From NCBI GenBank assembly GCA_947561585.1, contig CANNZV010001139.1, forward strand, positions 1 through 64,000: a DNA stretch of 64,000 bases, in the 5' to 3' direction. Below the pieces are notes generated by a model. It had not been told where the DNA came from. It made no database searches and worked only from the letters and a program-made list of their open reading frames with translations. The stretch comes from Caprella mutica (lineage: Eukaryota; Arthropoda; Malacostraca; Amphipoda; Caprellidae). Each line of letters begins with the position of its first letter. Position 1 is the stretch's first letter. Of this stretch, positions 32,569 through 61,037 are shown in pieces. Both the position numbers and the translations under genes were made by a program.

Positions 32569-32580
32569 AATTAGAGCAGC

Positions 32581-32593
32581 GGTCACGGCACCA
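32581..32593 (-). other. Primer binding site of the BEL/Pao relic
   Basis: TGGTGCCGTGACC on the minus strand, six bases inside the LTR end at 32600. It begins with the TGG expected for pairing to a tRNA 3' CCA end. The tRNA species is not assigned. Confidence 0.5.
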
Positions 32594-32599
32594 AATTAT

Positions 32600-33744: not shown

Positions 33745-34665
33745 AAACAATTGCTCGAAAAACAATTGCTCGAATGAACAATTGCTCGAATGAACAATTG
33801 CTCGAATGAACAATTGCTCAAAAGACAATTGCTCGAAAAACAATTGCTCGAACGAACAATTGATCGAATGAACAATTGCTCGAATTGTTCGAATGAACAA
33901 AATTGCTCGAATTATAAAAATGCACAGTTTTCGATTTTATAAAAGTCAGTTATTCTTGAAGTGGAGCTGCACCTAAAAGTCTTTGTTCCTTTTTAGAAAT
34001 TGATCATTAATCATTTTATAAATGATTTTAATTATTACTTATTCTGCATAATCATTTTTCAGACCGTTTGTGTCATCTCGTATGTAACATGTGAATTGGA
34101 TTATGTGGTGAATCAGTACTATTCATGTTATTTTTTTATTATAAAACATGAAAAAATTTGTAGATTTATTAAAACTCTGCCATAATTTTGTGTTATTTCA
34201 CCTATTGAGGTGCCACATACAGATAGGCTAACAATAAATTAATCTACAAATTTTTTCGGGTTTTATGATAAAAAAAACATGATTAGTACTGATTCACCAC
34301 ATGATTCCAATTCACATGTTACATAAGAGATGACACAACGGTCTAAAAAAAGATTATGCAGAATGAATAATAATTGAAATCATTTATAGAATGATTAATG
34401 ATCAATTACTAAAAAGGAACAAACAATGTTAGGTGCAGCTCCACTTCAAGAATAACTGACTTTTATAAAATCGAAAACTGTACAATTTATTATAATTCGA
34501 GCAATTTTGTTCATTCGAGCAATTTGATAATTCGAGCAATTGTTCATTCGATAAATTGTTCGTTCGAGCAATTGTTTTTATCGAGCGATTATTTTTCGAG
34601 CAATTGTTCATTCGAGCAATTGTTTTCGAGCAATTGTCGTTCGAGCATTTGTTTTCGAGCAATTT
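33745..34665. mobile_element. Foldback element with CAATTGCTCGAA subterminal array
   Basis: Two arms of about 425 bp (33745-34169 and 34228-34665) are near-exact inverted copies around a spacer of about 60 bp. The outer part of each arm is a tandem array of a 12-16-bp unit (AACAATTGCTCGAATG). No transposase frame. It sits between the Ty3/Gypsy relic and the RT fragment; the RT frame runs into the right arm and picks up NCSN-type repeats. Confidence 0.7.
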
Positions 34666-35559
34666 ACCGGCCATTGAAGACACAAAAGCAGGCAAGGCAA
34701 TATCTCCAGCTCTCCTACAACCTAGTCCACCAAGGCCAACCGGTAAAGTTGCCTGAACCCAAGAATCAGCTGACATCTCTACATTGGTCACACTGGCAAC
34801 GGCAGATCTAAGTGATTCATCAAAGCAGCTAAGTTCGACTACGTGCTTGTAAGCTGGAGAAGCCCGCAGAACATATTGTAGCTTCGGAATGGAGAAAACA
34901 TTTCTCAACAAAAAGAAGGCTTGATGGTTTTCCACCACCCGCAATCGAGAGACCATGAGATCCAGATCTTCTTTCTTCCTTAAAATCTCCTCGGGGATAC
35001 CCAAGTCACTTAAAGGAGCACCCAACAAGGAGCAATTGTCCTTATGAACCACTCTGGCATTTGGAAGCACTGCCTGGAACAACAATTCTGTTTTACCAGG
35101 GGCATTATCATCGAGAATGGTCAGCTCACATTTCGCGCTATTAACTTCAAGTCCGATGGCACTCAACCCATCTATCAAGGTTTTTACGTCCTCCAAAACT
35201 CTCCCCGGTGTATCTCCCAGGGCTGCGTCGTCCAGATACCATGCATTGAACTCTGACTCAACCCTGCGAGCCACCTCGTCAATTCCAAGAGCAAACATAG
35301 CCGGTCCAAAAGGGTCACCCTGCTGGATACCTGTCTCCGACCTCAGCACCTCTTCACCAAAAAACAAAGCTGAAGGCGAAGAATAAGCTTGCCAAAGGAG
35401 TCTATATAGCTCCGGCACACGGTTACGAATAACAGTAAAGAAGGTATCTCTCCTCAGACAATTGAAAGCGTTTTTCATATCCACCTTGAGAAACACCCTC
35501 CTATGGTTACAGTCATTCAAGTACCGTCTTGCAGAATGTGCGGCAGCTTATGTATAGGA
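34666..35559 (-). pseudogene. Reverse transcriptase fragment, non-LTR-like
   Basis: About 295 codons of RT without a stop: FLKVDMKNAFN (motif A), SETGIQQGDPFGPAMFALGI (motif B), AWYLDDAALGD (catalytic YLDD) and LEVNSAKCEL. The QGDP and YLDD signatures fit RTs of the non-LTR type. The frame opens at 35559 after a TAA, so the N-terminal part is missing; the C-terminal end is replaced at about 34668 by the foldback element. No endonuclease, RNase H or integrase is attached. Clade not assigned. Confidence 0.7.
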
Positions 35560-39762: not shown

Positions 39763-41057
39763 CAGGGTGCGAAGGAAATTCCCAATCAAATTATATTTTT
39801 CAAAGGAAAGATGTTGTTTATTTACTAAATTTATCCATTTATATCGCATTCTCTTCCTATAATCATATACTTTAATGTTCCAGGTCTAAATTTTGATATA
39901 TACATTGTATTTTGTAAAAATGAGTCAACGTGAGGCTATTATTCAGCTACACTGCGCAGGGAAGACAAACCCAGAGATTGTTAAGCTGTTAAAAGCACCG
40001 AAATCGACTGTTAGGGATGCTGTTAAACGCTACCAAGTACTGGAGACAACAGGTGATCGACCCAGGTGTGGACAACCTCGCACTGCACGCACTCCAACCA
40101 AAATCAAAGACAATTGGGGATTGGATAAGGAGGAACCCAAAGCGAAGCATGAGAAAGATGGCTAAGAGTATGGACATCGACGAAAAAAGTGTGAAAACCA
40201 TCGTCAAAGAAGACCTCAAGTTGTCCCCATTCAAAATGACCAACATGCAACAGCTCACTGACTTTCAGAAATAGAAGAGGCTGGACAGATCAAAGATTCT
40301 TTTCAATGCAATGAAAGATGGCACGCAAGCTGGTGAGATCGTCTTTTTGGATGAGAAAATGTTCACTGTGGAGGCCAAAATTAACTCCCAGAACGACACA
40401 ATTTTGGCTAAAAGTGCTGACAGTATCCCTCCTTCCGTAAAGACTGTTTTCCGTCGCCAAAAGCCTCTCTGTGATGGTTTGGGCTGCCATCTCTGAGATT
40501 TGGAGATCTCCTCTCATTTTCGTCAAAGAAGGCGCTAAAGTTAACGCAAAATTGTATATCGAGGATATTTTGAATCCAAGACAAGTCGAGATGAAGAAGC
40601 ACGTCAAGGACAGGCCTTTTAACTTTCAACAGGACGGTGCGCCTTCGCACACAGCGAACAAAACTCAGGATTGGTGTGGACGTCACTTTCCTGCGTTTTG
40701 GAGGAAGGAATTGTGGCCTCCTTCTTTGCCGTACCTCAACCCTCTGGACTTTTGTGTGTGGTCCATCTTGGAAAAGGAAGCGTGGGCTACAGCTCATGAT
40801 AGTACGGAATATCTGAAGAAGTATCTCGAGCGACAATGGACCAAAATTCCCCAAGAAACGTTCCTTGTCGCAGTAAAGAGCTTCAGAGGTAGACTCGAGA
40901 GAGTAATCGCCGCCAATGGTGGTCATATTTAAAAATAATTGGTAGAACTGTTAAATGGGTTTATTGAGATATTGTGTGATAAGTTTTGTTTTATATTATC
41001 CATCGCAACTCATTAAATTAACATTTTTAAATGGTCGGGGACTTTCTCCGCACCCTG
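39763..41057 (+). mobile_element. Mariner-family transposon, complete ends, dead transposase
   Basis: TA on both sides (39761-39762 and 41058-41059). The inverted ends CAGGGTGCGAAGGAAATTCC and, at the right, the complement of CAGGGTGCGGAGAAAGTCCC agree at most positions. Total length 1295 bp, typical for mariner elements. It encloses a broken transposase gene (39920-40932). Confidence 0.8.
39920..40932 (+). pseudogene. Mariner (DD37D-type) transposase, broken
   Basis: Starts at ATG 39920 with an N-terminal helix-turn-helix (MSQREAIIQLHCAGKTNPEI; STVRDAVKRY). The catalytic aspartates are in FLDEKMF, FQQDGAPSHTA and LNPLDFCVW; 37 residues separate the last two, as in DD37D mariners. The C-terminus ends VIAANGGHI. 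Damage: a frameshift near 40110, a TAG at 40272-40274 and a frameshift near 40465. All catalytic residues are still encoded. A 172-codon minus frame over this gene is a shadow. Confidence 0.8.
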
Positions 41058-42379: not shown

Positions 42380-42765
42380 GGATGGGGGAAAATCAAGTAG
42401 AATGGGGGAAAATCAGGAAGAATGGGGGGAAATAAGGTAGAATGGGGGGGAAATAAGGTAGAATGAGGGGAAATAAAGTAGAATGACGGAAAATGAGGTA
42501 GAATGGGGGAAATCGGGTAGAATGGGGGGAAATCAGGTAGAATAGGGGAAAATCATGTAGAATGGGGGAAAATCAGGTAGAATGGGGGAAAATCGAGTAG
42601 AATGGGGAAAATCAGGTGGAATGGGTGAAAATCAGGTAGAATGGGGGAAATCGGGTAGAATGGGTGAAAATCAGGTAGAATGGGGGAAATCGGGTAGAAT
42701 GGGGGAAAATCAGGTAGAATGGGGGGAAATCAGGTGGAATCGGGGAAAGAGTAGGGAAAATGATT
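42380..42765. repeat. Minisatellite C, third array (opposite strand)
   Basis: About 19 copies of GGTAGAATGGGGGAAAATCA, the complement of the unit at 2552-2755. It abuts the 3' end of a reverse family B copy. A short plus frame with GENQVEWG-type repeats is a by-product. Confidence 0.8.
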
Positions 42766-43739: not shown

Positions 43740-45391
43740 TGTAGCGGCAGAGGTGCCAGAATATGAACAGAGGTAAATGGGAGAGACTAATATTTATAAT
43801 GACTGAAAAAAACTAGAGTTCACCTGGCAAATTGAAACATCAAATATAAAATACAGCAATTAGGTCTCATCAATGGCAAATAAAACAAATAGGTAATTTG
43901 GTTCTTAAATGTAATACTTTTAATAAACTCTTAATAACAAAACTAAATGAACTACTTATAAACTATTAATAAACAAAAACCAAGTAAATATACTCTAGAA
44001 GAAATCTGGTAAAAAGAAATAAATTAACTTAGTCGCCGATAGAATTCGCGACGGCAGATAACGGTGTTTACGTACGCTACCCACAACAAACACACCCACA
44101 CACTCAAGCAAACCTCCGTACAGTAATACCAATGATGCACATTAATGTAGGGGAAATAAATAATGCACAAAAAAATAATTACACCTCAATGATAGAAATA
44201 TGGTACGGTAATTTATAACGGTAGGTGGTCTACAGAAGTTACTGTAAGAAAACAGAGACACAAAATATACGGAGTTCCGTCAACACTCCTAAGAGCATAT
44301 AGGTAATGGGTCTTATTTCCAGATTAAATATTCACGAATAAATATGGCATTAATTCGTATATTAGGTGGTCATCAGAATATAGGATACGAGATAATTAGA
44401 ACTAGAATTAAATTTCGAGGACCTAGGCAGAATTGCTAGGACCTAGTTAGAATTTCAAGATCTAGGCAGAATTTCCAGGACCAAGGTAGAATTTCAGGTT
44501 CTAGGTAGAACTCCAGGTCCCAGGTAGAATGTCAGGTCCCAGGTAGAATGTCAGGTTCTAGGTTGGTATTTACAAAAGAGACCTCTGAGCAAGGTAGGGA
44601 GTGTCTTTATCAAAGTAGCACTGAAAAGTAGACTCTTGACCAAGGTAGTTTAGGAAGAGTTCATCTCTGCTACACGAACTGTAGAGAGAAAAAATAACTC
44701 CAGATAAACTCAGGCAAAAATCAAACTAAAATTAAAAATAACATCAAACTATAATTTTTCCCAAATTTCCACCTTGAGCAACAACACATGGCATAGCTCT
44801 ACTTACATGGTGTGATCTGCTTTCAGAGAGTGATAGAATGATTGGCCAGCAACTGGCCAACCTCAGACAAGCAGCAACAAACTCAGTTAGGCTTGAACAA
44901 GCTCCGTCAGGCTGCAACAAGCTCCGATAGTCGGTTTACAGTTTTATTTTAGGGTAACACTACTGCACCGTCTATTTCAAGACTAATCGAGCAGTCTTAC
45001 TTTACAAACAAATAAACCTAAGGACAAATAGACAACTAAACTGGAGAAATTACTAGCCTCCTCAATGGGGCTCCAGCGAGGCGTTTATTCTAAAATTAGA
45101 TTAAACGACTCTACCGGAATTCCCAACAATCAGATGAAAAAATACCAACGTAACAAGATCACAGTTCAGCACATCAACAAGATAAAACTTAAAAGGAACG
45201 AACAGAGTGATACTGCAGTTCAGAAAACTAGGTGCCAAATATCACTCTACAACCAGTATCACCTTCCAAGGGAAACTACTCGAATACCAAAAATTGAAAC
45301 AATGAAGAGCGAGAGGGACAATGGGTCACAAAAATAAAGGAATTTAACCATTTAAATTACTAACCAATACAGAATAATCCAGATTTCAACA
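43740..45391 (-). repeat. LTR 1 (3' LTR of copy 1)
   Basis: 1652 bp, TGTTGAAATC...CCGCTACA in element orientation. The left edge is where period-9976 similarity starts; the right edge is set by the terminal TGT next to a polypurine tract. It holds a GACCTAGGTAGAATTTCAG-like minisatellite (44415-44575). A 90-codon antisense frame (45065-45337) is unlikely to be a gene. Confidence 0.85.
44415..44575. repeat. Minisatellite inside the LTR
   Basis: About eight imperfect 17-19-bp units of the type CAGGTCCCAGGTAGAATGT. Repeated in LTR 2 at 54391-54551. Such arrays in LTRs often change copy number between family members and may carry regulatory sites; that role is inference. Confidence 0.6.
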
Positions 45392-48300
45392 TTCCTCCCC
45401 ACCTGGCCCATTGCTCACTCTCTTAGAAACAGAACGTGACTTGTATTCAATAGGGGTCGGCTGGACTCTAGGAAAATCTTGAACCGGTCCTTGTGAACGG
45501 GTTTGACGTCGATTACCCGGAAAAACCACTGAAGCTTTCGACGAAGTCGACGGATCAGATGAAATGGGACGAGAAGTCGAAGAATCTGACTTTAGGAAAT
45601 TACTCCTCTTCTTACGACGATTCCATAATTCAGGCAAGGACCCAACAACTGGCCTAGTTATCGCAAGATCCAATGCGGTAATAGTCCTACTTAACCAAAT
45701 AAAGCGCGGGCGTGTTGCCTTTTCAACGAGCAGACTATCCAAATCACCATAGCTCCAGTTCATTCTGGTAGAGATCCTCCAAGTAACCGGCTCATCGGTC
45801 TGCTTCTCTAAATCCAAATATAAGTCATCTGCACAATTATCAGACTCGTCCTCGATATCTGGGGTTACAACGTAATACTTTCTCGAATCATTACTGAGGA
45901 GAGAAATATATTCGCTCATAGTAGTATCACTCTCAGATTCGTCACTCGCAGGTTCATTACATACAGATGGTTCGACCTCCAGTATTTCCCAAAACTCTGG
46001 ATCATCTGCCAAAGATGACCAATTCAAGTCCCTTGACGAAGATGATGTTTCCGGAACAATGAAGGTATACTCCTTAGTTTCCAGAGTGAGATCTTTGACA
46101 TTAGGCAAAAATGTCTCCTCCACCTCGCATATAGTGTCTATATAGTCCTCGAACACCATGTCAATACAGAGATCTTCCGAAGGATGTACATCGAAAGTGA
46201 AATTATCATTAATCCCTATTTCACCGCTAGAGGACTTACGTGAGTATTCTCCAATAACTCGAGGGTGATAATCATTATCTGCAGGAAAATAATCACCCGA
46301 ATAGCCATCACCGATTGGCTGGAATTGATCGACAGTAGTCTCCTGAGTAGGAAGAACCTCGTGCTCTGTTTGAGAACCACTCGACACAATTCGATCAAAT
46401 GAAAAGTGATTTAAGAGATATCTTGGAGCTGGGTAGTAACGACGTAATTGTGTATGATGAACCTTTTGTTCACGACCATCAGACACTCTCTTTATGATGT
46501 AGGTCACTTTATTCAAATTTACTTGAACAATCTGGTACGGACCACAGTACCTGTCCTCTAACTTATCTGTCAACTTACGCCCTGTAAATACTATTTTACG
46601 GAGTACCATGTTACCTCTTTTAAATGGTTTAAAAGCAGGATTCCCCTGTTTCCAGTATGTATTTTCTGTGGCAGGCAATCTCAAATCTGAAGACAACATG
46701 TGACTATGTCTGAGTAGAAATGACGATGGTGACTCCTTTAATTCCGAATGAGTAGAACCATTGTACAACATAACAGCACGAGGAATCATGGTGTCCCAAT
46801 CATGACACTCTGCTTTCAAACTTCTTAGAAGTTCAGTCAAGGTCCTATTGGTTCGCTCTACTAAGCCATTGCTAGTGGGCTTGTAAGCCGTAGTGCGTAT
46901 ATGGGCTATAGACCAACGATCAAGCACATCAGTGAACGTAGCTGCTCGAAATTCTGGACCATTATCGCTTAGAATCTTCTGTGGTACTTTCAGCAACGAT
47001 GGCAGGATCTGGTTCTCCAAAGCAGCTGAGACAACTGCAGAGGTTTTATTGGGAAGAGGAACCACAGACAGCCACTTTGAATAATGATCGACTGCCACTA
47101 AGCAGCAGGAATTTCGTTTTCTCGTCGTAGGCAACGCTAGCAAATCTACGGTCAACAACTCAAATGGCGAACTGGTTTGAATCTTAGTGATTGGTGGCTG
47201 TAACACTCCGGCCACTTTCACTCTCTGACAGGAGTCACAAGTCCGTGTGACATCTGAAGCAACTGCAGCGATGCTAGGGTGCCACAAGTGCTGCGTAACG
47301 TCATCTATTAATTTCTGACGACCAGGATGAGCTCTGCAATGGTGGAAAAGTAAGCACACTTCTACCAAAAAATTAAAGGGTATAATGGGTACTAACAATT
47401 TACCCTTTTCATATAATAGCACCTCATCTACTATGTTTATCGATTTACGATACCTGTGATACCTTTTTATGGGTGCTGGCCATGACTGGTTTGTAGGGTT
47501 TTGAATCATCTTCCTCAATTGTGAGAGCTGATTATGCTTTTGAAGTTCCAGCAACTCGTTACGATCAAGTGGTATTATCGTATTCAAATCTGATTCATTT
47601 GCGATGAAGCTCTGTCGTACAGCGCAAGAATGACCAGCGTGAGAAGCAGATGGCTCCTTGAATTTGGGGATTTGTACCACCGACATTGGAGTTATCAATT
47701 GCTGTTCTGATAAGCTCAACTGAAAATTGTGAGCTTCCATCAAATCTATACCGAAGATGCAGCAAAAATTCATCGAGCCCCTTGGTACAATCACGAAATC
47801 ATGCTCAAATCCGAAACCTCCCATGTGAAATGGTAAGTTCAACTTTCCGAGCACTGTAGACTTTCCATCTCCTATACCAATAATTTCCATTCCACCACAT
47901 TCTGTTAATTCATCATGGTCATCTGGAAGGACATCAATGATCAAACAACTAACTTGCGCACCAGTATCTAGTAACACGCATCTCTCTTCACCCAGTATAG
48001 ACACCATTAATGTAGTACTGTGTGAACGATGATGAAGTCGACACCAATCCGAACGATCGTTTTCATCGGAACTCCGATATAGAGAAGTAGTGCGAATCTG
48101 TGGTTCATCACATGGCTCATCTTCGTCACGATTGGGGTTCGAAGGAGAGAAGTCATCGACAGCTGGTGGGACAGGATCACGAGGAAGTTTCGGAACCTGA
48201 TAACCAGCACTCTCAACCAACGGGTTGAAATGAATTCCAGCTAATAGATGAAGATGTACTCTCACTGCATCACTAGCTAACTGCAAGGTTGGCGATGAGT

Positions 48301-51061
48301 AAACAATCGGATGGGTAGAACCTAGATGTACGAATACAACACAGCGATAAATATGAGCAAATGCACCAATTGCTTCCATGCACATCAGCTGACCTGGTTG
48401 ACACATCAAATTAAAGCTTTGGGTTCCACGCTGACGTTTGGCAACTCCATATGCTTTGGGGTCTCTGCGTAGCTCTGTTACTAAACGTTCTCGTAAGTCT
48501 AATGAAGTGTCTGGCAACTGTAACAGTCCTGTGCATCCACCTGATACTAGCAAACTTTGACAAAGAGAGTCACCTCCTCCAGGCACCTCCTTACAGTGCA
48601 CGATACCAACAGGCAGACTCGAGTTATCTTCTGTTCCCAGAGCTTCTTCCTCTGAATTATTTAGGTGTTCTATTCGGGACAAGGCGTCTGCGGCCATATT
48701 CTCACGACCAGGTGTGAATTTGACAGTGAAATTATATTCACTTAACTCTCGTAACGTGCGAGCCAATCTCATATTCACAATTTGCAGATTGTGAAGATAT
48801 AGCAGTGGACGATGGTCAGTCATCACAACGAATTCAACACCGAACACGAAAGGTCTGAACGTTTTCACTGCCCATCTAATCGCTGCCAGCTCGCGTTCGA
48901 TAGTGCTATATCGCACTTCTGCGGCATTGAAGGCAACTGAAGCATAGGCAATAATCCGAATAGATCCTTCTTGATTTTGAGCCAGACATGCTCCAATTCC
49001 ACAGCCAGATGCATCCGTGAAGACTAACAAGGGTTCAGCCTCATCACTGTAGTCTGGGAAGGCTAATCTAACATCAGTAGCCATCATGCTTTTAAGTTGG
49101 TTAAATGCATCTTCCATTTCACCCGTCCAGATGATTTTTCCTTTTTTGTCTTTCCCTCCAGAAGCTCGACTTAAAGGTTTCATTATCACGGAACAGTTGG
49201 GCACGAATTTTCTTTGAAAGTTCAATAGTCCCATGAACTCACGAAGTTGAGTCTTAGTCTTCGGTTGAGGGAAGCCAACAACGGCTTTCACATAGCTTTC
49301 TGGCTTTTTCAGACCTTTACAACTGACCGTATGACCCAAAAACTCTACCTCCTCTGAGAACCATTTACACTTGCCGAGATTTAATTTCACTCCATGTTCC
49401 CTGAGAGTGAACAATACAGCTTTGCAGAGTTCCAAGTGTTCAGCGAAGGTCTCTCCCATAATGAGAATATCGTCTATGTAAACGATGACCTTCCTCCAAC
49501 TGAACCCACTCAAGACTTGCTTCATCACTCGTTGGAAGGCTGACGGAGCGTTTTTTAATCCGAAGGAGAGGCGTTTAAACTGCCAGTGTCCTCTGGCGGT
49601 CGAAAAAGCAGTGTACTGTCTGGTGTTTATGTCTAAGGGCACTTGGTAGTATCCCTTGACCAAGTCCAATGATGTGAAATATTTCACACCGTGAAGGCCA
49701 AAAATAGCATCACTGAGATTTGGAAGGGGAAATTTGTCTGCCTTGGTGACTGCATTTAACCGACGATAATCAATGCACAATCTGATTGATCCGTCTTTTT
49801 TTCTTATAGGAACCACAGGGCTAGACCAACCTGATTCGCTCTGTTCGATTACATCCAGCAGCTCCAACTCTTTAACTTGTTTTTCGATATCCATGTTGAC
49901 AGGACCTGGAAATCGACGGGGACGCTGGTAGATTGGTGTGTAGTCTGTTAGTTCGATTCTATGGGGGGCGATATCCAGACAGCCGATTTCATTTTCTTTG
50001 CCAAAAACATCTTCATTATCGAGCAAAAGCTCGAGTACTTCCTCCTTTTCATCAGAGGATAAATTGTTCTGCAAGATCACCTGATTAAAATCAACGGCAT
50101 GGGATTCGGGAGCTCCAGCAGATTCAACGGCAACAACGTTAATCGCCTTAGATTTAATCAATTCTGAGTAATCGATCACCGATGAAACTGATCCTATTAT
50201 TTGGTTTTTCTTCAAAGATTCTGCATAAGTTCCGTTATTCAGAACAAGAGCTTCAACAACTGTGTCACCAGCAGGAATTATCCCACTAATCAGCTGCAAC
50301 CGTTGACTGCCCTCTTTCTCATCAAGGAAAAACAATTCTTGATTACAGGAACAGCACACACAGCAAGGACCCTTCACAATATCAGGATAGCTCCAAATGA
50401 CTTTAACCTTTTCCATGCATTGGGGTTTAACAGTAGTGGGAGTCTCCACGACAAGTGGTAAATTGGACCATACTATGCGACAATTATTAGAATTAGCATC
50501 GATGTAACACTCCCAAGTTGTTCCGTCGTTGAGATTTTTCCGCACTCTACGGCGTTTCAAATCTAATATGATTTCATTTTCTTTCAGAAAAGGAACTCCT
50601 AACATTATCATACCAGATAGTTTATTAGATTCCAATATTAAAAATTCACAAGGATCCAACTTTAAACCATGTAACTCTATAGGTATAGAAACCTTTCCTA
50701 ATACCTTAGTTGGGCCACTCAAGCCAAAGCCCAGAATGTATTCATCATCAAGAGCTTGGTAAATAGTACCTGCCTCATTTAGTATCTCAACAGGGATGAG
50801 GTTAGATTGAGCTCCGCTGTCAAACATAGCCTCATGCAATCCTCCAAATAGCTCAATCGAAGTCACTAGTCTATTTTCTTTCACAGAACCCACCAGTGAA
50901 ATGTTTCTATATTCACTATTTGCAGGTTCACCATTGGAAGCCTCAAACTCGTTTTCAATTTCCACGTCTGAGTTAGATATTTCATTATCTAATTCAATAA
51001 CTTGCGATTCCTCTATAGAGGCATCACCCGCAACTGGTTGCTCATTATTAAGAGTAATCAA
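45386..51061 (-). CDS. pol: Pol polyprotein, copy 1: PR-RT-RNaseH-OTU-PR2-IN
   Basis: 1891 codons; numbering starts at the TTG at 51061, but the frame is open up to 51151 and is read after -1 frameshifting from gag. Domains: retropepsin (DSGAQ at 81-85, LGVPFL at 154-159); Cys-rich segment 233-239; RT about 395-575 (YIDD 528-531); RNase H about 675-800 (D683, E724, D749, D792); OTU-like cysteine protease about 828-950 (D831, C834, H944, N946); second retropepsin-like domain about 1016-1118 (DTGAQ at 1032-1036, FGIDLMEAHNFQL at 1103-1115); integrase with HHCC finger (H1241, H1245, C1275, C1278), D1306, D1366, E1402 and GPY at 1507-1509; Ser/Asp/Glu-rich tail 1550-1891. All catalytic residues are present. 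The stop lies inside the LTR. Confidence 0.92.
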   Translation of the reverse strand: MITLNNEQPVAGDASIEESQVIELDNEISNSDVEIENEFEASNGEPANSEYRNISLVGSVKENRLVTSIELFGGLHEAMFDSGAQSNLIPVEILNEAGTIYQALDDEYILGFGLSGPTKVLGKVSIPIELHGLKLDPCEFLILESNKLSGMIMLGVPFLKENEIILDLKRRRVRKNLNDGTTWECYIDANSNNCRIVWSNLPLVVETPTTVKPQCMEKVKVIWSYPDIVKGPCCVCCSCNQELFFLDEKEGSQRLQLISGIIPAGDTVVEALVLNNGTYAESLKKNQIIGSVSSVIDYSELIKSKAINVVAVESAGAPESHAVDFNQVILQNNLSSDEKEEVLELLLDNEDVFGKENEIGCLDIAPHRIELTDYTPIYQRPRRFPGPVNMDIEKQVKELELLDVIEQSESGWSSPVVPIRKKDGSIRLCIDYRRLNAVTKADKFPLPNLSDAIFGLHGVKYFTSLDLVKGYYQVPLDINTRQYTAFSTARGHWQFKRLSFGLKNAPSAFQRVMKQVLSGFSWRKVIVYIDDILIMGETFAEHLELCKAVLFTLREHGVKLNLGKCKWFSEEVEFLGHTVSCKGLKKPESYVKAVVGFPQPKTKTQLREFMGLLNFQRKFVPNCSVIMKPLSRASGGKDKKGKIIWTGEMEDAFNQLKSMMATDVRLAFPDYSDEAEPLLVFTDASGCGIGACLAQNQEGSIRIIAYASVAFNAAEVRYSTIERELAAIRWAVKTFRPFVFGVEFVVMTDHRPLLYLHNLQIVNMRLARTLRELSEYNFTVKFTPGRENMAADALSRIEHLNNSEEEALGTEDNSSLPVGIVHCKEVPGGGDSLCQSLLVSGGCTGLLQLPDTSLDLRERLVTELRRDPKAYGVAKRQRGTQSFNLMCQPGQLMCMEAIGAFAHIYRCVVFVHLGSTHPIVYSSPTLQLASDAVRVHLHLLAGIHFNPLVESAGYQVPKLPRDPVPPAVDDFSPSNPNRDEDEPCDEPQIRTTSLYRSSDENDRSDWCRLHHRSHSTTLMVSILGEERCVLLDTGAQVSCLIIDVLPDDHDELTECGGMEIIGIGDGKSTVLGKLNLPFHMGGFGFEHDFVIVPRGSMNFCCIFGIDLMEAHNFQLSLSEQQLITPMSVVQIPKFKEPSASHAGHSCAVRQSFIANESDLNTIIPLDRNELLELQKHNQLSQLRKMIQNPTNQSWPAPIKRYHRYRKSINIVDEVLLYEKGKLLVPIIPFNFLVEVCLLFHHCRAHPGRQKLIDDVTQHLWHPSIAAVASDVTRTCDSCQRVKVAGVLQPPITKIQTSSPFELLTVDLLALPTTRKRNSCCLVAVDHYSKWLSVVPLPNKTSAVVSAALENQILPSLLKVPQKILSDNGPEFRAATFTDVLDRWSIAHIRTTAYKPTSNGLVERTNRTLTELLRSLKAECHDWDTMIPRAVMLYNGSTHSELKESPSSFLLRHSHMLSSDLRLPATENTYWKQGNPAFKPFKRGNMVLRKIVFTGRKLTDKLEDRYCGPYQIVQVNLNKVTYIIKRVSDGREQKVHHTQLRRYYPAPRYLLNHFSFDRIVSSGSQTEHEVLPTQETTVDQFQPIGDGYSGDYFPADNDYHPRVIGEYSRKSSSGEIGINDNFTFDVHPSEDLCIDMVFEDYIDTICEVEETFLPNVKDLTLETKEYTFIVPETSSSSRDLNWSSLADDPEFWEILEVEPSVCNEPASDESESDTTMSEYISLLSNDSRKYYVVTPDIEDESDNCADDLYLDLEKQTDEPVTWRISTRMNWSYGDLDSLLVEKATRPRFIWLSRTITALDLAITRPVVGSLPELWNRRKKRSNFLKSDSSTSRPISSDPSTSSKASVVFPGNRRQTRSQGPVQDFPRVQPTPIEYKSRSVSKRVSNGPGGEEC
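45392..45403 (-). other. Polypurine tract of copy 1
   Basis: GGTGGGGAGGAA on the minus strand, directly before the LTR's TGTTGA; this would prime plus-strand synthesis. It is also the coding sequence for the last four Pol residues before Cys (GGEE). Copy 2 equivalent: 55368-55379. Confidence 0.75.
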
Positions 51062-51087
51062 TTTTAAGCTGGGTGTGGACTCTGAGT

Positions 51088-52977
51088 CTATAAGCTCTGT
51101 TCTCCGTCCACGCGACCAAGAGCTCTTTCTTTTAACGGCCTGGAGTCGTATCTAACTCGCTTATCAGTGGGAGGATGGTTGTCGGTGTGACGGTAACCTG
51201 GGTTATCCTTCAGAGGGCAATTTGCTTTCCAGTGGTCGTAGCTTCCACATCCAAAACATCTGTTGTGTTTGCCCCAACAATTTTTCTCGGTATGACCTGC
51301 CTTGTTACAGCTCCTGCATCTTACTTGATCACGAGATCTCACAGATGGTGGAGATGGACCATACTTTGGAGATCGCTGATCATTACGTTGAAAGGCTGGA
51401 AGACTAGGAACTCCGTCTCGTCCAGGTGAGTGAACCTGTTGGTCCCTTCGAGGTGGATAACGAGTGTTATGGTTTGACCTATTCCAGTAAACATCCCTTT
51501 TGCGATCTACTGGTGATCTACAATGCCAATCATCGGGCTGATGATGATAACTATCTAATTCATCAGTCTGTTTTGCTGTCCATCGGCTGCTACTGAACAA
51601 GCTCACAGGTTCGACACTATCCTTAAGCGGAACCAATGACTTGGAAATCAATTTCCTATCGTGTTGTTCCACTAACTTCTTCAGCCGCTTCCAAGAAAGA
51701 CTACCCTCATCAGTCACACTAAAAATGCCCTCGGCAATGTCTATCTGCTGAACCAATGAGTATGGGGCAGTGCTCTTCAATTTCCTTTTTAGTTGAGATT
51801 CCATTTCGCGGGGAGATTCACAGAACACTCGTTCCGCCAATTTTTCTAATCTCAAGCAGTATATTGAACACGAGTCTCCAGGAATCATTGTAGCATTATT
51901 GAAGTCCTCCCTGATTTTATCAGTCCTGTCTACCTGCTGCGACTCATGCCATGAGATTAGTTTCCCCTTCAAATCCTCGTAGTTCATATCAGAACCGCTC
52001 AATGCACTATATGCAGACCTAGCTGTTCCAGAGAGATATTTCTCCAAGTGCATTGCCATTTCTCTCTCAGTACCCTCATACTTTGACCCAAAGTAGCGTT
52101 CATAACTGGTGAAGAACTTAAAGATGGATCCTCCTTTCGCTGGGTCGAAAACAGAAGGAGGGATAACCTCTCTTCGGGGCCCTAAACTTCTCAGAGTACG
52201 GACTAGCAAGTCCTCTTTGCTTTCAGTTCCCCTTCTTGTCTCGTTAGAAGAACCACTCTGACCCTGATCGATCTTGTAAGAACTAGTTTCATGATCGAAG
52301 TGGTTTCCATGATATTTCTCCTCACGCACAGCAAAAGATTCAACGTAAGCCTTAGCTTCTTGATTTATTGAATGTGCACCAGATGGGACACGTGACGATG
52401 AAGAATCGTCGTCTCTACCCCTGTTAACATCGGTCCATCCATCGCTCTTAATCAAAATTTCAAAGAAATTTCTCCACCAGGAAAAGTTCTTCCTGATTGG
52501 AAAAGGACGTCCGTCCTCATCCCTTGGCTCTGAAGAATCCATGGAGAAAAGCTTCGCCAAGTCAACCATCCTAGGTTCAATATCCTTCCGAGCTTCAACA
52601 GGAGAAGGAAGAAATATTCGCATGAATATGTCAATGGATGAGAGAAACTCATTGGAGCAGAAATCCTTAATTAGAAGTCCGTTTAGGAACTTTTCACGGA
52701 CCGAATTATAGGTAAATTGCATCAGCATACCCTGATAAACCACAATTCTTCTCGTAATTACGGCATCTTTCTGAGCCTGAGTTCTAAGTTCTCTCGCTAA
52801 CACATTACGTTCTTCCTTTAGTTTACTTATTTCAGATTTACACTCTATAATGGTGCTAGTCATTTTCTCGACAGGACTATCAGACACGTTATTAGATATA
52901 GGACCAGCCACTGGGGACAAGCTGTCACCGAATTTGGGATCAGTAACGACTGGTCGTAAAGTTTCTTCTTCTTTCAT
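51088..52977 (-). CDS. gag: Gag polyprotein, copy 1
   Basis: 629 codons from ATG 52977 to TAG 51088-51090. It has a predicted coiled-coil stretch at about residues 43-71 (K/E/L-rich) and a capsid-like retrotransposon Gag segment at about 275-400 (FKFFTSYERYFGSKYEG; AMHLEKYLSGTARSAYSAL). Two CX2CX4HX4C zinc knuckles at 554-567 and 574-587 bind RNA. A basic Arg/Asp/Pro-rich region precedes them. Gag forms the particle that packages the RNA. It ends in the 0 frame, overlapping pol in -1. Confidence 0.9.
   Translation of the reverse strand: MKEEETLRPVVTDPKFGDSLSPVAGPISNNVSDSPVEKMTSTIIECKSEISKLKEERNVLARELRTQAQKDAVITRRIVVYQGMLMQFTYNSVREKFLNGLLIKDFCSNEFLSSIDIFMRIFLPSPVEARKDIEPRMVDLAKLFSMDSSEPRDEDGRPFPIRKNFSWWRNFFEILIKSDGWTDVNRGRDDDSSSSRVPSGAHSINQEAKAYVESFAVREEKYHGNHFDHETSSYKIDQGQSGSSNETRRGTESKEDLLVRTLRSLGPRREVIPPSVFDPAKGGSIFKFFTSYERYFGSKYEGTEREMAMHLEKYLSGTARSAYSALSGSDMNYEDLKGKLISWHESQQVDRTDKIREDFNNATMIPGDSCSIYCLRLEKLAERVFCESPREMESQLKRKLKSTAPYSLVQQIDIAEGIFSVTDEGSLSWKRLKKLVEQHDRKLISKSLVPLKDSVEPVSLFSSSRWTAKQTDELDSYHHQPDDWHCRSPVDRKRDVYWNRSNHNTRYPPRRDQQVHSPGRDGVPSLPAFQRNDQRSPKYGPSPPSVRSRDQVRCRSCNKAGHTEKNCWGKHNRCFGCGSYDHWKANCPLKDNPGYRHTDNHPPTDKRVRYDSRPLKERALGRVDGEQSL
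51130..51136 (-). promoter_or_regulatory. Candidate -1 ribosomal frameshift site, copy 1
   Basis: G TTA AAA in the gag frame, 39 bases before the gag stop (51088-51090), inside the 64-base overlap in which both frames are open. Slipping back one base re-pairs as GTT AAA. The motif resembles the G UUA AAC site known from nidoviruses. Downstream AAGAGCTCTT is a palindrome, but I see no clear pseudoknot. Copy 2 equivalent: 61106-61112. Confidence 0.4.
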
Positions 52978-53715: not shown

Positions 53716-55367
53716 TGTAGCGGCAGAGGTGCCAGAATATGAACAGAGGTAAATGGGAGAGACTAATATTTATAATGACTGAAAAAAACTAGAGTTCACC
53801 TGGCAAATTGAAACATCAAATATAAAATACAGCAATTAGGTCTCATCAATGGCAAATAAAACAAATAGGTAATTTGGTTCTTAAATGTAATACTTTTAAT
53901 AAACTCTTAATAACAAAACTAAATGAACTACTTATAAACTATTAATAAACAAAAACCAAGTAAATATACTCTAGAAGAAATCTGGTAAAAAGAAATAAAT
54001 TAACTTAGTCGCCGATAGAATTCGCGACGGCAGATAACGGTGTTTACGTACGCTACCCACAACAAACACACCCACACACTCAAGCAAACCTCCGTACAGT
54101 AATACCAATGATGCACATTAATGTAGGGGAAATAAATAATGCACAAAAAAATAATTACACCTCAATGATAGAAATATGGTACGGTAATTTATAACGGTAG
54201 GTGGTCTACAGAAGTTACTGTAAGAAAACAGAGACACAAAATATACGGAGTTCCGTCAACACTCCTAAGAGCATATAGGTAATGGGTCTTATTTCCAGAT
54301 TAAATATTCACGAATAAATATGGCATTAATTCGTATATTAGGTGGTCATCAGAATATAGGATACGAGATAATTAGAACTAGAATTAAATTTCGAGGACCT
54401 AGGCAGAATTGCTAGGACCTAGTTAGAATTTCAAGATCTAGGCAGAATTTCCAGGACCAAGGTAGAATTTCAGGTTCTAGGTAGAACTCCAGGTCCCAGG
54501 TAGAATGTCAGGTCCCAGGTAGAATGTCAGGTTCTAGGTTGGTATTTACAAAAGAGACCTCTGAGCAAGGTAGGGAGTGTCTTTATCAAAGTAGCACTGA
54601 AAAGTAGACTCTTGACCAAGGTAGTTTAGGAAGAGTTCATCTCTGCTACACGAACTGTAGAGAGAAAAAATAACTCCAGATAAACTCAGGCAAAAATCAA
54701 ACTAAAATTAAAAATAACATCAAACTATAATTTTTCCCAAATTTCCACCTTGAGCAACAACACATGGCATAGCTCTACTTACATGGTGTGATCTGCTTTC
54801 AGAGAGTGATAGAATGATTGGCCAGCAACTGGCCAACCTCAGACAAGCAGCAACAAACTCAGTTAGGCTTGAACAAGCTCCGTCAGGCTGCAACAAGCTC
54901 CGATAGTCGGTTTACAGTTTTATTTTAGGGTAACACTACTGCACCGTCTATTTCAAGACTAATCGAGCAGTCTTACTTTACAAACAAATAAACCTAAGGA
55001 CAAATAGACAACTAAACTGGAGAAATTACTAGCCTCCTCAATGGGGCTCCAGCGAGGCGTTTATTCTAAAATTAGATTAAACGACTCTACCGGAATTCCC
55101 AACAATCAGATGAAAAAATACCAACGTAACAAGATCACAGTTCAGCACATCAACAAGATAAAACTTAAAAGGAACGAACAGAGTGATACTGCAGTTCAGA
55201 AAACTAGGTGCCAAATATCACTCTACAACCAGTATCACCTTCCAAGGGAAACTACTCGAATACCAAAAATTGAAACAATGAAGAGCGAGAGGGACAATGG
55301 GTCACAAAAATAAAGGAATTTAACCATTTAAATTACTAACCAATACAGAATAATCCAGATTTCAACA
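53716..55367 (-). repeat. LTR 2, shared by both copies
   Basis: 5' LTR of copy 1 and 3' LTR of copy 2 at once. No difference from LTR 1 was found in the stretches I compared, and there is no length difference. It has the same internal minisatellite (54391-54551) and the same antisense frame (55041-55313). Confidence 0.85.
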
Positions 55368-58300
55368 TTCCTCCCCACCTGGCCCATTGCTCACTCTCTT
55401 AGAAACAGAACGTGACTTGTATTCAATAGGGGTCGGCTGGACTCTAGGAAAATCTTGAACCGGTCCTTGTGAACGGGTTTGACGTCGATTACCCGGAAAA
55501 ACCACTGAAGCTTTCGACGAAGTCGACGGATCAGATGAAATGGGACGAGAAGTCGAAGAATCTGACTTTAGGAAATTACTCCTCTTCTTACGACGATTCC
55601 ATAATTCAGGCAAGGACCCAACAACTGGCCTAGTTATCGCAAGATCCAATGCGGTAATAGTCCTACTTAACCAAATAAAGCGCGGGCGTGTTGCCTTTTC
55701 AACGAGCAGACTATCCAAATCACCATAGCTCCAGTTCATTCTGGTAGAGATCCTCCAAGTAACCGGCTCATCGGTCTGCTTCTCTAAATCCAAATATAAG
55801 TCATCTGCACAATTATCAGACTCGTCCTCGATATCTGGGGTTACAACGTAATACTTTCTCGAATCATTACTGAGGAGAGAAATATATTCGCTCATAGTAG
55901 TATCACTCTCAGATTCGTCACTCGCAGGTTCATTACATACAGATGGTTCGACCTCCAGTATTTCCCAAAACTCTGGATCATCTGCCAAAGATGACCAATT
56001 CAAGTCCCTTGACGAAGATGATGTTTCCGGAACAATGAAGGTATACTCCTTAGTTTCCAGAGTGAGATCTTTGACATTAGGCAAAAATGTCTCCTCCACC
56101 TCGCATATAGTGTCTATATAGTCCTCGAACACCATGTCAATACAGAGATCTTCCGAAGGATGTACATCGAAAGTGAAATTATCATTAATCCCTATTTCAC
56201 CGCTAGAGGACTTACGTGAGTATTCTCCAATAACTCGAGGGTGATAATCATTATCTGCAGGAAAATAATCACCCGAATAGCCATCACCGATTGGCTGGAA
56301 TTGATCGACAGTAGTCTCCTGAGTAGGAAGAACCTCGTGCTCTGTTTGAGAACCACTCGACACAATTCGATCAAATGAAAAGTGATTTAAGAGATATCTT
56401 GGAGCTGGGTAGTAACGACGTAATTGTGTATGATGAACCTTTTGTTCACGACCATCAGACACTCTCTTTATGATGTAGGTCACTTTATTCAAATTTACTT
56501 GAACAATCTGGTACGGACCACAGTACCTGTCCTCTAACTTATCTGTCAACTTACGCCCTGTAAATACTATTTTACGGAGTACCATGTTACCTCTTTTAAA
56601 TGGTTTAAAAGCAGGATTCCCCTGTTTCCAGTATGTATTTTCTGTGGCAGGCAATCTCAAATCTGAAGACAACATGTGACTATGTCTGAGTAGAAATGAC
56701 GATGGTGACTCCTTTAATTCCGAATGAGTAGAACCATTGTACAACATAACAGCACGAGGAATCATGGTGTCCCAATCATGACACTCTGCTTTCAAACTTC
56801 TTAGAAGTTCAGTCAAGGTCCTATTGGTTCGCTCTACTAAGCCATTGCTAGTGGGCTTGTAAGCCGTAGTGCGTATATGGGCTATAGACCAACGATCAAG
56901 CACATCAGTGAACGTAGCTGCTCGAAATTCTGGACCATTATCGCTTAGAATCTTCTGTGGTACTTTCAGCAACGATGGCAGGATCTGGTTCTCCAAAGCA
57001 GCTGAGACAACTGCAGAGGTTTTATTGGGAAGAGGAACCACAGACAGCCACTTTGAATAATGATCGACTGCCACTAAGCAGCAGGAATTTCGTTTTCTCG
57101 TCGTAGGCAACGCTAGCAAATCTACGGTCAACAACTCAAATGGCGAACTGGTTTGAATCTTAGTGATTGGTGGCTGTAACACTCCGGCCACTTTCACTCT
57201 CTGACAGGAGTCACAAGTCCGTGTGACATCTGAAGCAACTGCAGCGATGCTAGGGTGCCACAAGTGCTGCGTAACGTCATCTATTAATTTCTGACGACCA
57301 GGATGAGCTCTGCAATGGTGGAAAAGTAAGCACACTTCTACCAAAAAATTAAAGGGTATAATGGGTACTAACAATTTACCCTTTTCATATAATAGCACCT
57401 CATCTACTATGTTTATCGATTTACGATACCTGTGATACCTTTTTATGGGTGCTGGCCATGACTGGTTTGTAGGGTTTTGAATCATCTTCCTCAATTGTGA
57501 GAGCTGATTATGCTTTTGAAGTTCCAGCAACTCGTTACGATCAAGTGGTATTATCGTATTCAAATCTGATTCATTTGCGATGAAGCTCTGTCGTACAGCG
57601 CAAGAATGACCAGCGTGAGAAGCAGATGGCTCCTTGAATTTGGGGATTTGTACCACCGACATTGGAGTTATCAATTGCTGTTCTGATAAGCTCAACTGAA
57701 AATTGTGAGCTTCCATCAAATCTATACCGAAGATGCAGCAAAAATTCATCGAGCCCCTTGGTACAATCACGAAATCATGCTCAAATCCGAAACCTCCCAT
57801 GTGAAATGGTAAGTTCAACTTTCCGAGCACTGTAGACTTTCCATCTCCTATACCAATAATTTCCATTCCACCACATTCTGTTAATTCATCATGGTCATCT
57901 GGAAGGACATCAATGATCAAACAACTAACTTGCGCACCAGTATCTAGTAACACGCATCTCTCTTCACCCAGTATAGACACCATTAATGTAGTACTGTGTG
58001 AACGATGATGAAGTCGACACCAATCCGAACGATCGTTTTCATCGGAACTCCGATATAGAGAAGTAGTGCGAATCTGTGGTTCATCACATGGCTCATCTTC
58101 GTCACGATTGGGGTTCGAAGGAGAGAAGTCATCGACAGCTGGTGGGACAGGATCACGAGGAAGTTTCGGAACCTGATAACCAGCACTCTCAACCAACGGG
58201 TTGAAATGAATTCCAGCTAATAGATGAAGATGTACTCTCACTGCATCACTAGCTAACTGCAAGGTTGGCGATGAGTAAACAATCGGATGGGTAGAACCTA

Positions 58301-61037
58301 GATGTACGAATACAACACAGCGATAAATATGAGCAAATGCACCAATTGCTTCCATGCACATCAGCTGACCTGGTTGACACATCAAATTAAAGCTTTGGGT
58401 TCCACGCTGACGTTTGGCAACTCCATATGCTTTGGGGTCTCTGCGTAGCTCTGTTACTAAACGTTCTCGTAAGTCTAATGAAGTGTCTGGCAACTGTAAC
58501 AGTCCTGTGCATCCACCTGATACTAGCAAACTTTGACAAAGAGAGTCACCTCCTCCAGGCACCTCCTTACAGTGCACGATACCAACAGGCAGACTCGAGT
58601 TATCTTCTGTTCCCAGAGCTTCTTCCTCTGAATTATTTAGGTGTTCTATTCGGGACAAGGCGTCTGCGGCCATATTCTCACGACCAGGTGTGAATTTGAC
58701 AGTGAAATTATATTCACTTAACTCTCGTAACGTGCGAGCCAATCTCATATTCACAATTTGCAGATTGTGAAGATATAGCAGTGGACGATGGTCAGTCATC
58801 ACAACGAATTCAACACCGAACACGAAAGGTCTGAACGTTTTCACTGCCCATCTAATCGCTGCCAGCTCGCGTTCGATAGTGCTATATCGCACTTCTGCGG
58901 CATTGAAGGCAACTGAAGCATAGGCAATAATCCGAATAGATCCTTCTTGATTTTGAGCCAGACATGCTCCAATTCCACAGCCAGATGCATCCGTGAAGAC
59001 TAACAAGGGTTCAGCCTCATCACTGTAGTCTGGGAAGGCTAATCTAACATCAGTAGCCATCATGCTTTTAAGTTGGTTAAATGCATCTTCCATTTCACCC
59101 GTCCAGATGATTTTTCCTTTTTTGTCTTTCCCTCCAGAAGCTCGACTTAAAGGTTTCATTATCACGGAACAGTTGGGCACGAATTTTCTTTGAAAGTTCA
59201 ATAGTCCCATGAACTCACGAAGTTGAGTCTTAGTCTTCGGTTGAGGGAAGCCAACAACGGCTTTCACATAGCTTTCTGGCTTTTTCAGACCTTTACAACT
59301 GACCGTATGACCCAAAAACTCTACCTCCTCTGAGAACCATTTACACTTGCCGAGATTTAATTTCACTCCATGTTCCCTGAGAGTGAACAATACAGCTTTG
59401 CAGAGTTCCAAGTGTTCAGCGAAGGTCTCTCCCATAATGAGAATATCGTCTATGTAAACGATGACCTTCCTCCAACTGAACCCACTCAAGACTTGCTTCA
59501 TCACTCGTTGGAAGGCTGACGGAGCGTTTTTTAATCCGAAGGAGAGGCGTTTAAACTGCCAGTGTCCTCTGGCGGTCGAAAAAGCAGTGTACTGTCTGGT
59601 GTTTATGTCTAAGGGCACTTGGTAGTATCCCTTGACCAAGTCCAATGATGTGAAATATTTCACACCGTGAAGGCCAAAAATAGCATCACTGAGATTTGGA
59701 AGGGGAAATTTGTCTGCCTTGGTGACTGCATTTAACCGACGATAATCAATGCACAATCTGATTGATCCGTCTTTTTTTCTTATAGGAACCACAGGGCTAG
59801 ACCAACCTGATTCGCTCTGTTCGATTACATCCAGCAGCTCCAACTCTTTAACTTGTTTTTCGATATCCATGTTGACAGGACCTGGAAATCGACGGGGACG
59901 CTGGTAGATTGGTGTGTAGTCTGTTAGTTCGATTCTATGGGGGGCGATATCCAGACAGCCGATTTCATTTTCTTTGCCAAAAACATCTTCATTATCGAGC
60001 AAAAGCTCGAGTACTTCCTCCTTTTCATCAGAGGATAAATTGTTCTGCAAGATCACCTGATTAAAATCAACGGCATGGGATTCGGGAGCTCCAGCAGATT
60101 CAACGGCAACAACGTTAATCGCCTTAGATTTAATCAATTCTGAGTAATCGATCACCGATGAAACTGATCCTATTATTTGGTTTTTCTTCAAAGATTCTGC
60201 ATAAGTTCCGTTATTCAGAACAAGAGCTTCAACAACTGTGTCACCAGCAGGAATTATCCCACTAATCAGCTGCAACCGTTGACTGCCCTCTTTCTCATCA
60301 AGGAAAAACAATTCTTGATTACAGGAACAGCACACACAGCAAGGACCCTTCACAATATCAGGATAGCTCCAAATGACTTTAACCTTTTCCATGCATTGGG
60401 GTTTAACAGTAGTGGGAGTCTCCACGACAAGTGGTAAATTGGACCATACTATGCGACAATTATTAGAATTAGCATCGATGTAACACTCCCAAGTTGTTCC
60501 GTCGTTGAGATTTTTCCGCACTCTACGGCGTTTCAAATCTAATATGATTTCATTTTCTTTCAGAAAAGGAACTCCTAACATTATCATACCAGATAGTTTA
60601 TTAGATTCCAATATTAAAAATTCACAAGGATCCAACTTTAAACCATGTAACTCTATAGGTATAGAAACCTTTCCTAATACCTTAGTTGGGCCACTCAAGC
60701 CAAAGCCCAGAATGTATTCATCATCAAGAGCTTGGTAAATAGTACCTGCCTCATTTAGTATCTCAACAGGGATGAGGTTAGATTGAGCTCCGCTGTCAAA
60801 CATAGCCTCATGCAATCCTCCAAATAGCTCAATCGAAGTCACTAGTCTATTTTCTTTCACAGAACCCACCAGTGAAATGTTTCTATATTCACTATTTGCA
60901 GGTTCACCATTGGAAGCCTCAAACTCGTTTTCAATTTCCACGTCTGAGTTAGATATTTCATTATCTAATTCAATAACTTGCGATTCCTCTATAGAGGCAT
61001 CACCCGCAACTGGTTGCTCATTATTAAGAGTAATCAA
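55362..61037 (-). CDS. pol: Pol polyprotein, copy 2: PR-RT-RNaseH-OTU-PR2-IN
   Basis: 1891 codons, residue for residue identical to copy 1, so every catalytic motif listed there is present. Numbering starts at a TTG at 61037; the frame is open up to 61127, overlapping gag by 64 bases. The OTU-like segment lies at about 58186-58556 and the second retropepsin at about 57684-57992. The stop TGA (55362-55364) again lies in the LTR. Identity over 1891 codons means very recent duplication or an assembly repeat. Confidence 0.92.
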   Translation of the reverse strand: MITLNNEQPVAGDASIEESQVIELDNEISNSDVEIENEFEASNGEPANSEYRNISLVGSVKENRLVTSIELFGGLHEAMFDSGAQSNLIPVEILNEAGTIYQALDDEYILGFGLSGPTKVLGKVSIPIELHGLKLDPCEFLILESNKLSGMIMLGVPFLKENEIILDLKRRRVRKNLNDGTTWECYIDANSNNCRIVWSNLPLVVETPTTVKPQCMEKVKVIWSYPDIVKGPCCVCCSCNQELFFLDEKEGSQRLQLISGIIPAGDTVVEALVLNNGTYAESLKKNQIIGSVSSVIDYSELIKSKAINVVAVESAGAPESHAVDFNQVILQNNLSSDEKEEVLELLLDNEDVFGKENEIGCLDIAPHRIELTDYTPIYQRPRRFPGPVNMDIEKQVKELELLDVIEQSESGWSSPVVPIRKKDGSIRLCIDYRRLNAVTKADKFPLPNLSDAIFGLHGVKYFTSLDLVKGYYQVPLDINTRQYTAFSTARGHWQFKRLSFGLKNAPSAFQRVMKQVLSGFSWRKVIVYIDDILIMGETFAEHLELCKAVLFTLREHGVKLNLGKCKWFSEEVEFLGHTVSCKGLKKPESYVKAVVGFPQPKTKTQLREFMGLLNFQRKFVPNCSVIMKPLSRASGGKDKKGKIIWTGEMEDAFNQLKSMMATDVRLAFPDYSDEAEPLLVFTDASGCGIGACLAQNQEGSIRIIAYASVAFNAAEVRYSTIERELAAIRWAVKTFRPFVFGVEFVVMTDHRPLLYLHNLQIVNMRLARTLRELSEYNFTVKFTPGRENMAADALSRIEHLNNSEEEALGTEDNSSLPVGIVHCKEVPGGGDSLCQSLLVSGGCTGLLQLPDTSLDLRERLVTELRRDPKAYGVAKRQRGTQSFNLMCQPGQLMCMEAIGAFAHIYRCVVFVHLGSTHPIVYSSPTLQLASDAVRVHLHLLAGIHFNPLVESAGYQVPKLPRDPVPPAVDDFSPSNPNRDEDEPCDEPQIRTTSLYRSSDENDRSDWCRLHHRSHSTTLMVSILGEERCVLLDTGAQVSCLIIDVLPDDHDELTECGGMEIIGIGDGKSTVLGKLNLPFHMGGFGFEHDFVIVPRGSMNFCCIFGIDLMEAHNFQLSLSEQQLITPMSVVQIPKFKEPSASHAGHSCAVRQSFIANESDLNTIIPLDRNELLELQKHNQLSQLRKMIQNPTNQSWPAPIKRYHRYRKSINIVDEVLLYEKGKLLVPIIPFNFLVEVCLLFHHCRAHPGRQKLIDDVTQHLWHPSIAAVASDVTRTCDSCQRVKVAGVLQPPITKIQTSSPFELLTVDLLALPTTRKRNSCCLVAVDHYSKWLSVVPLPNKTSAVVSAALENQILPSLLKVPQKILSDNGPEFRAATFTDVLDRWSIAHIRTTAYKPTSNGLVERTNRTLTELLRSLKAECHDWDTMIPRAVMLYNGSTHSELKESPSSFLLRHSHMLSSDLRLPATENTYWKQGNPAFKPFKRGNMVLRKIVFTGRKLTDKLEDRYCGPYQIVQVNLNKVTYIIKRVSDGREQKVHHTQLRRYYPAPRYLLNHFSFDRIVSSGSQTEHEVLPTQETTVDQFQPIGDGYSGDYFPADNDYHPRVIGEYSRKSSSGEIGINDNFTFDVHPSEDLCIDMVFEDYIDTICEVEETFLPNVKDLTLETKEYTFIVPETSSSSRDLNWSSLADDPEFWEILEVEPSVCNEPASDESESDTTMSEYISLLSNDSRKYYVVTPDIEDESDNCADDLYLDLEKQTDEPVTWRISTRMNWSYGDLDSLLVEKATRPRFIWLSRTITALDLAITRPVVGSLPELWNRRKKRSNFLKSDSSTSRPISSDPSTSSKASVVFPGNRRQTRSQGPVQDFPRVQPTPIEYKSRSVSKRVSNGPGGEEC

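Follow-up and report, generated by a model that had tools for sequence, protein, structure and literature searches.

An OTU-fold domain with serine at the key cysteine position in the Pol of a group of Gypsy LTR retrotransposons

An OTU-fold domain has long been carried by a group of Gypsy LTR retrotransposons, in whose Pol it follows RNase H and precedes a second retropepsin. A serine occupies the key cysteine position of the fold, which suggests that the domain grips rather than cuts ubiquitin, or else acts as a serine enzyme of an unusual kind. The analysis started from a 64,000-nucleotide stretch of Caprella mutica DNA (the window), for which a sequence-only reading had proposed an OTU-like cysteine protease inside an LTR-retrotransposon Pol. 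Residues are numbered here in the stop-to-stop Pol frame; the numbers of that reading are 30 lower, so that its C834, H944, N946 and D831 correspond to Cys864, His974, Asn976 and Asp861.

The minus strand of the window contains two tandem units of 9976 nt each with shared LTRs. The main features of the first unit are:

43740..45391, minus strand: left LTR copy, about 1.65 kb (left edge uncertain by ~20 nt)
45386..51151, minus strand: Pol, one open frame of 1921 codons
51088..53019, minus strand: Gag open frame with CCHC knuckle (PF00098, E 0.003, 18 bits, below the cut-off of 20.8)
50582..50836, minus strand: first retropepsin, PR1, Pol 106-190, motif DSG (PF13975, E 2.3e-4, 22.1 bits, below the cut-off of 28.2)
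49325..49807, minus strand: reverse transcriptase (RT), Pol 449-609 (PF00078, E 2.1e-34)
48734..49039, minus strand: RNase H, Pol 705-806 (PF17917, E 8.6e-30)
47717..48010, minus strand: second retropepsin, PR2, Pol 1048-1145, motif DTG (PF00077, E 5.6e-5, above the cut-off)
46877..47347, minus strand: integrase zinc-binding part and catalytic core, Pol 1269-1425 (PF17921, E 1.4e-7; PF00665, E 6.6e-14)

The domain order in Pol is PR1, RT, RNase H, the OTU-fold stretch, PR2 and integrase. The LTRs, a Gag with a CCHC knuckle (below cut-off) and the PR-RT-RNase H-integrase order bear out the proposed LTR-retrotransposon setting and identify a Gypsy-type element, an assignment based on these features. 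The other two LTR copies start at 53716 and 63692, giving a tandem LTR-internal-LTR-internal-LTR arrangement at 43740-64000 (the contig extends to 65343). The first and third LTR differ at one base and the two units at three, all outside the OTU region; the array is either very recent, a recombination product or an assembly effect. Gag and Pol overlap at 51088-51151 (minus strand) and are read in different frames, an arrangement that suggests that Pol is made by ribosomal frameshifting.

This Pol has two retropepsin-like domains, PR1 before RT and PR2 after the OTU-fold stretch; a literature search turned up no Gypsy element described with two aspartic proteases. The PR1 motif is kept in aligned relatives, and the Asp of the PR2 catalytic motif is present in 62/62 relatives with letters at that position. 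A PDB sequence search with the stretch holding PR2 yielded two weak matches, neither of them a protease. Elsewhere in the window, frames at 27844-32595 and 34429-35547 (minus strand) and at 40408-40950 look by eye like BEL/Pao pieces and a mariner-like piece, for which Pfam gave nothing at E 0.001 in the four frames searched, and include an RT fragment (PF00078, E 7.1e-13). A minisatellite of 20-nt units (18.5 copies) lies at 42382-42748.

The OTU-fold domain and the residues discussed below map as follows:

48197..48640, minus strand: OTU-fold domain, Pol residues about 838-985 (AF2 model, Foldseek, VIA-align, profile match)
58173..58616, minus strand: OTU-fold domain of the second tandem unit (identical Pol translation, offset 9976 nt)
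48566..48568, minus strand: Ser862, codon TCT, at the OTU nucleophile Cys position (profile register, state counts, codon)
48560..48562, minus strand: Cys864, the nucleophile of the sequence-only reading, not conserved (conservation, codon)
48224..48232, minus strand: His974-Phe975-Asn976, corresponding to the catalytic His, aromatic gatekeeper and third triad residue of OTUs (alignment, conservation)

The AF2 model of the domain (pLDDT 88, pTM 0.83) matched OTUD3, yeast Otu2 and DUBA in both Foldseek and VIA-align, and the best 50 matches listed by each were all OTU or OTU-containing entries, which by fold of the model places the domain in the OTU superfamily. Baculovirus VP80/P80 capsid proteins were among the BFVD Foldseek matches of the model (E 1.6e-6 to 1.5e-4). 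The letters GDSL raised the question of a GDSL/SGNH hydrolase, which found no support among the fold matches listed; these letters fall in the register of the OTU Cys loop and are explained without such an enzyme. At the sequence level, homology to OTUs was detected with a 16-row profile, which matched OTUD3 in the PDB at E 7.9e-7 and, weakly, two viral L-protein OTUs (E 0.08), whereas the window sequence alone detected none: the best match of a single-sequence PDB search of the region was to ankyrin-like designed repeats (E 2.9), and PF02338 gave nothing up to E 1. Of the checks put forward with the sequence-only reading, PF02338 thus missed the domain in the window, and the profile and the predicted structure found it. 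PF02338 matched five of the 16 profile members (best E 2.1e-4); the best scorer, the Cys-bearing relative P0017, reached 22.3 bits against a curated cut-off of 23.3 bits, and Pfam searches of five relatives' domains returned nothing for three. Three pattern matches were found in the viral contigs searched, and none was confirmed.

A homologous stretch is present in 68 other proteins, each with RT, RNase H and/or integrase domains listed, so that the similarity to OTUs exceeds chance. The motif strings quoted in the sequence-only reading are all present in the Pol frame, and the OTU fold that it placed after RNase H and ahead of the second retropepsin, with an identical copy 9976 nt further on, proved correct. 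In the aligned relatives the domain sits at the same place in Pol, with RNase H on one side and PR2 on the other. This constancy would suit an OTU fold taken over for a structural or protein-contact role without a ubiquitin link, for example to position PR2 or integrase or to space RNase H from integrase, and the VP80/P80 matches hint at OTU folds in particle proteins; such a role leaves the high conservation of the active-site His, aromatic and Asn unexplained, however, and we consider it improbable.

Alignment with OTUD3 sets PGDGNC over PGGGDS and GEHYD over GIHFN. Comparison of the profile with OTUs of the element's own genome likewise sets DGNC over GGDS (probability 46%, E 2e-4), and the Cys of DGNC or DGDC also falls on Ser862 in the two viral L-protein OTUs. 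These alignments identify Ser862 as the nucleophile position. The sequence-only reading had read D-x-x-C, as in DGNC, ending on Cys864, which is off by two residues: Cys864 lies one helical step beyond the nucleophile.

The window and its 68 relatives give 69 aligned Pol sequences. Position 862 is Ser in 63, Ala in four and Cys in two of them, preceded by Asp in 66 and by Asn, the residue found in OTUD3, in three. Gly858 and Gly859 are invariant (69/69 each), the latter at the place of the Asp of DGNC. His974 is present in 69/69 rows and is as invariant as the catalytic Asp/Glu residues of RT and integrase; it is followed by an aromatic residue throughout (Phe in 43, Tyr in 26) and then by Asn in 68 rows and Asp in one, which upholds the earlier placement of the His and Asn. 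Few residues of the domain are as well conserved as the active-site His, aromatic and Asn. A catalytic His followed by an aromatic and Asn/Asp is therefore found, whereas the Cys nucleophile in a DGNC-type loop and the Asp of DGNC are replaced by Ser862 and Gly859; with the fold present and these two residues missing, the domain is not an OTU cysteine protease.

Position 864, in 63 rows, is Phe in 43, Leu in nine, Ile and Val in four each, and Cys, Met and Pro in one each, the single Cys being that of the window. The Cys does recur in 7/7 copies sampled from the cluster to which the window's element belongs, yet it is absent from the 68 other aligned Pols and from 73/80 copies in the own genome, and it is out of register in both the OTUD3 and the own-genome alignments. 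We accordingly give practically no credence to an active OTU cysteine protease using Cys864. The sequence-only reading had named lack of conservation of this cysteine in relatives as counting against it; this lack removes the catalytic claim and leaves the fold standing. Cys969 was considered as an alternative nucleophile and rejected: 65/69 relatives carry Cys there, and the window has Leu (own-genome copies: Cys 53, Ser 9, Leu 7, Asn 7, of 76).

In a tree of RT-RNase H (59 of 63 rows, four being too short; quick method, midpoint root), Ser occurs throughout. The Cys-bearing P0006 stands among Ser rows, the other Cys row, P0017, pairs with the Ala-bearing P0020, and Ala-bearing P0063 sits on a long branch, so that four state changes at position 862 suffice. 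P0066 and P0067, also with Ala, are kin of P0063 (55-58% identity), which makes two Ala lineages; P0065 has Ser. All four Ala relatives retain the His, aromatic and Asn. They show no D[TSN]GA motif after the OTU domain, and PR2 may therefore be absent from them.

A search of the 903-Mb own genome gave at least 152 matches, with 150 of 597 candidates scored; 80 stretches hand-picked across the listed similarity range, together with the window, made up 81 copies, which were read in stop-free frames only. Ser862 is present in 80/80 copies with letters at that position, encoded by TCT in 51, TCC in 17, TCG in eight and TCA in four; the 68 copies with TCT or TCC are a single base change from Cys. 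Position 974 is His in 74/76 copies, 975 is Phe or Tyr in 76/76, and 976 is Asn in 70, Asp in five (one cluster) and Tyr in one. Clustering at 90% codon identity yielded 23 clusters, with Ser in 23/23, His in 21/23 and, by motif search only, a PR2-like motif after the OTU domain in 20/23. A PF02338 search of the same genome produced eight matches, none on a listed Pol OTU match; a motif script found DGNC in five of these loci (L090, L092-L095), DGAC in L096 and neither in L089 and L091. L092-L095 are OTU frames with canonical DGNC in several copies, open over 184-558 codons, and perhaps represent another mobile element.

Usable dS values were available for 16 of 253 pairs of cluster representatives, with dN/dS ranging from 0.11 to 1.33 (median 0.21). 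All seven pairs with dS > 0.7 gave 0.11-0.21, and the four highest values (0.53-1.33) came from close pairs including the single copies L050, L052 or L053, a pattern indicating long-term constraint with drift of recent single copies. A functionless, decaying passenger domain captured from a host would account for truncated copies, for His974Asn (L044, L050) and Asn976Tyr (L068) in single copies, and for the near-identical pairs with dN/dS near or above 1. It is very improbable in view of the Ser in all copies and clusters, the low median dN/dS, the 68 diverse relatives and the absence of neutral dN/dS between intact diverged families.

The reading we prefer, at about an even chance, is that the Pol OTU mainly binds, without catalysis, the Gly-Gly tail of ubiquitin or of a ubiquitin-like protein. 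The thiol at the nucleophile position would be replaced by a small residue, Ser or Ala, the aromatic gatekeeper and the His/Asn pair would grip the tail, and Pol, and with it the virus-like particle, would be tethered to, or would shield, ubiquitin on Gag-Pol or host partners. The fold, the register, the conservation of His, aromatic, Asn and Gly, and the dN/dS values support a binder, and the Ala lineages favour binding, since a need for a nucleophile leaves their intact His, aromatic and Asn unexplained. Precedents come from the available parts of several papers: CG3251 and Otu of Drosophila, with a natural Ser, did not cleave ubiquitin chains (PMC4654579); Cys-to-Ala exchange in deubiquitinases, including OTUD1, raises ubiquitin affinity, and in Ubp8 Cys146Ala the C-terminus of ubiquitin can form extra hydrogen bonds once the thiol is gone (PMC6172466); and the aromatic after the His is the Gly-Gly gatekeeper of deubiquitinases (PMC7391069). 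The least secure steps are the choice of ubiquitin as the ligand and the advantage that the element would gain. The excess of Ser over Ala (63 to four, and Ser in every own-genome copy) and the near-restriction of position 976 to Asn/Asp, with one exception, resemble a kept catalytic triad and count against a binder, as do the two relatives with Cys. Drosophila Otu has later been reported to have deubiquitinase activity, which also weighs against binding.

A rival reading is a working serine isopeptidase or protease, in which Ser862, His974 and Asn976 would form a triad on the OTU scaffold and the target would be ubiquitin or a ubiquitin-like protein on Gag-Pol or host proteins, or Pol itself. 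The triad-like conservation, the invariance of the His and the two Ser/Cys exchanges, as expected of interchangeable nucleophiles, speak for it, as does the Asp before Ser, which adds negative charge relative to OTUD3; in the accessible text of PMC10318531, papain-like folds are believed to favour Ser where negative charge surrounds the site, and Ser-for-Cys exchange is called 'especially intriguing and poorly explored'. Of the 80 own-genome copies, however, 11 have Asn and four have Glu ahead of Ser, so that Asp is rejected as a required acid; the Ala lineages retain the rest of the site, and the Drosophila Ser-OTUs were inactive in vitro as described in the available part of PMC4654579. Given the preference for Ser over Ala, the limits at position 976 and the literature on charged sites, a serine enzyme is kept as a rather unlikely alternative. 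We think it unlikely, too, that Ser862-His974-Asn976 is a true serine-nucleophile OTU, an active ubiquitin or ubiquitin-like isopeptidase kept across the whole retroelement group; if it were, it would be a serine-type deubiquitinase, of which none had been described before according to the same part of that paper.

For the binder and the enzyme alike, the residue to assay is Ser862 instead of Cys864, and the natural Ser, Cys and Ala variants at one site make binding and catalysis testable against each other. The domain may mean that the Pol of a retrotransposon has a ubiquitin-type interaction of its own. OTU domains are already known from mobile elements, namely Ginger1 and Helitrons (PMC2836005) and Helentrons (PMC4067079, PMC6431247), and an OTU-like domain occurs in adintovirus PolB (PMC11071296), each as given in the available part of the source. 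PMC text searches of partial coverage did not find an OTU in Gypsy Pol, and within that partial search the serine-position OTU inside a Gypsy Pol appears to be new.

Compared with OTUD3 (PDB 4bou) and other OTU deubiquitinases, the Pol domain shares the fold, the order of elements, the His, the aromatic after it and the Asn/Asp two residues after it, but differs by Ser for Cys, Gly859 for the Asp of DGNC and Asp for Asn before the nucleophile, at ~18-19% identity. Nairovirus-like L-protein OTUs (7y5m, 11ny), matched by profile and fold, likewise lie inside a large replication polyprotein, but have a Cys nucleophile and belong to RNA viruses. The OTUD4 homologues Otu and CG3251 of Drosophila, compared by description only (PMC4654579, available part), also have a natural Ser at the nucleophile position and keep the His, but they are Tudor-domain host genes whose Ser is of recent and repeated origin. 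In the Pol OTU, by contrast, a whole retroelement group has Ser as its usual state; the known Ser-OTUs are a few host genes, whereas the set found here comprises 69 aligned Pols, with Ser, Cys and Ala variants, and no fewer than 23 clusters from a single genome. Ginger1 transposases and Helentrons, compared by description in the accessible parts of PMC2836005 and PMC4067079, carry an OTU in a mobile-element protein, that of Ginger1 adjoining a Gypsy-type integrase; they are DNA transposons and not reverse-transcribing, and their OTUs are described as cysteine proteases, with all residues required for function present in the Helentron OTU (PMC4067079). Finally, the AlkB m6A demethylase of an orchid Gypsy lineage, as described in the available part of PMC9289625, is similarly a modification domain of host type that has become fixed in Gypsy elements, but it occupies a separate frame, performs another chemistry and is confined to one plant genus.
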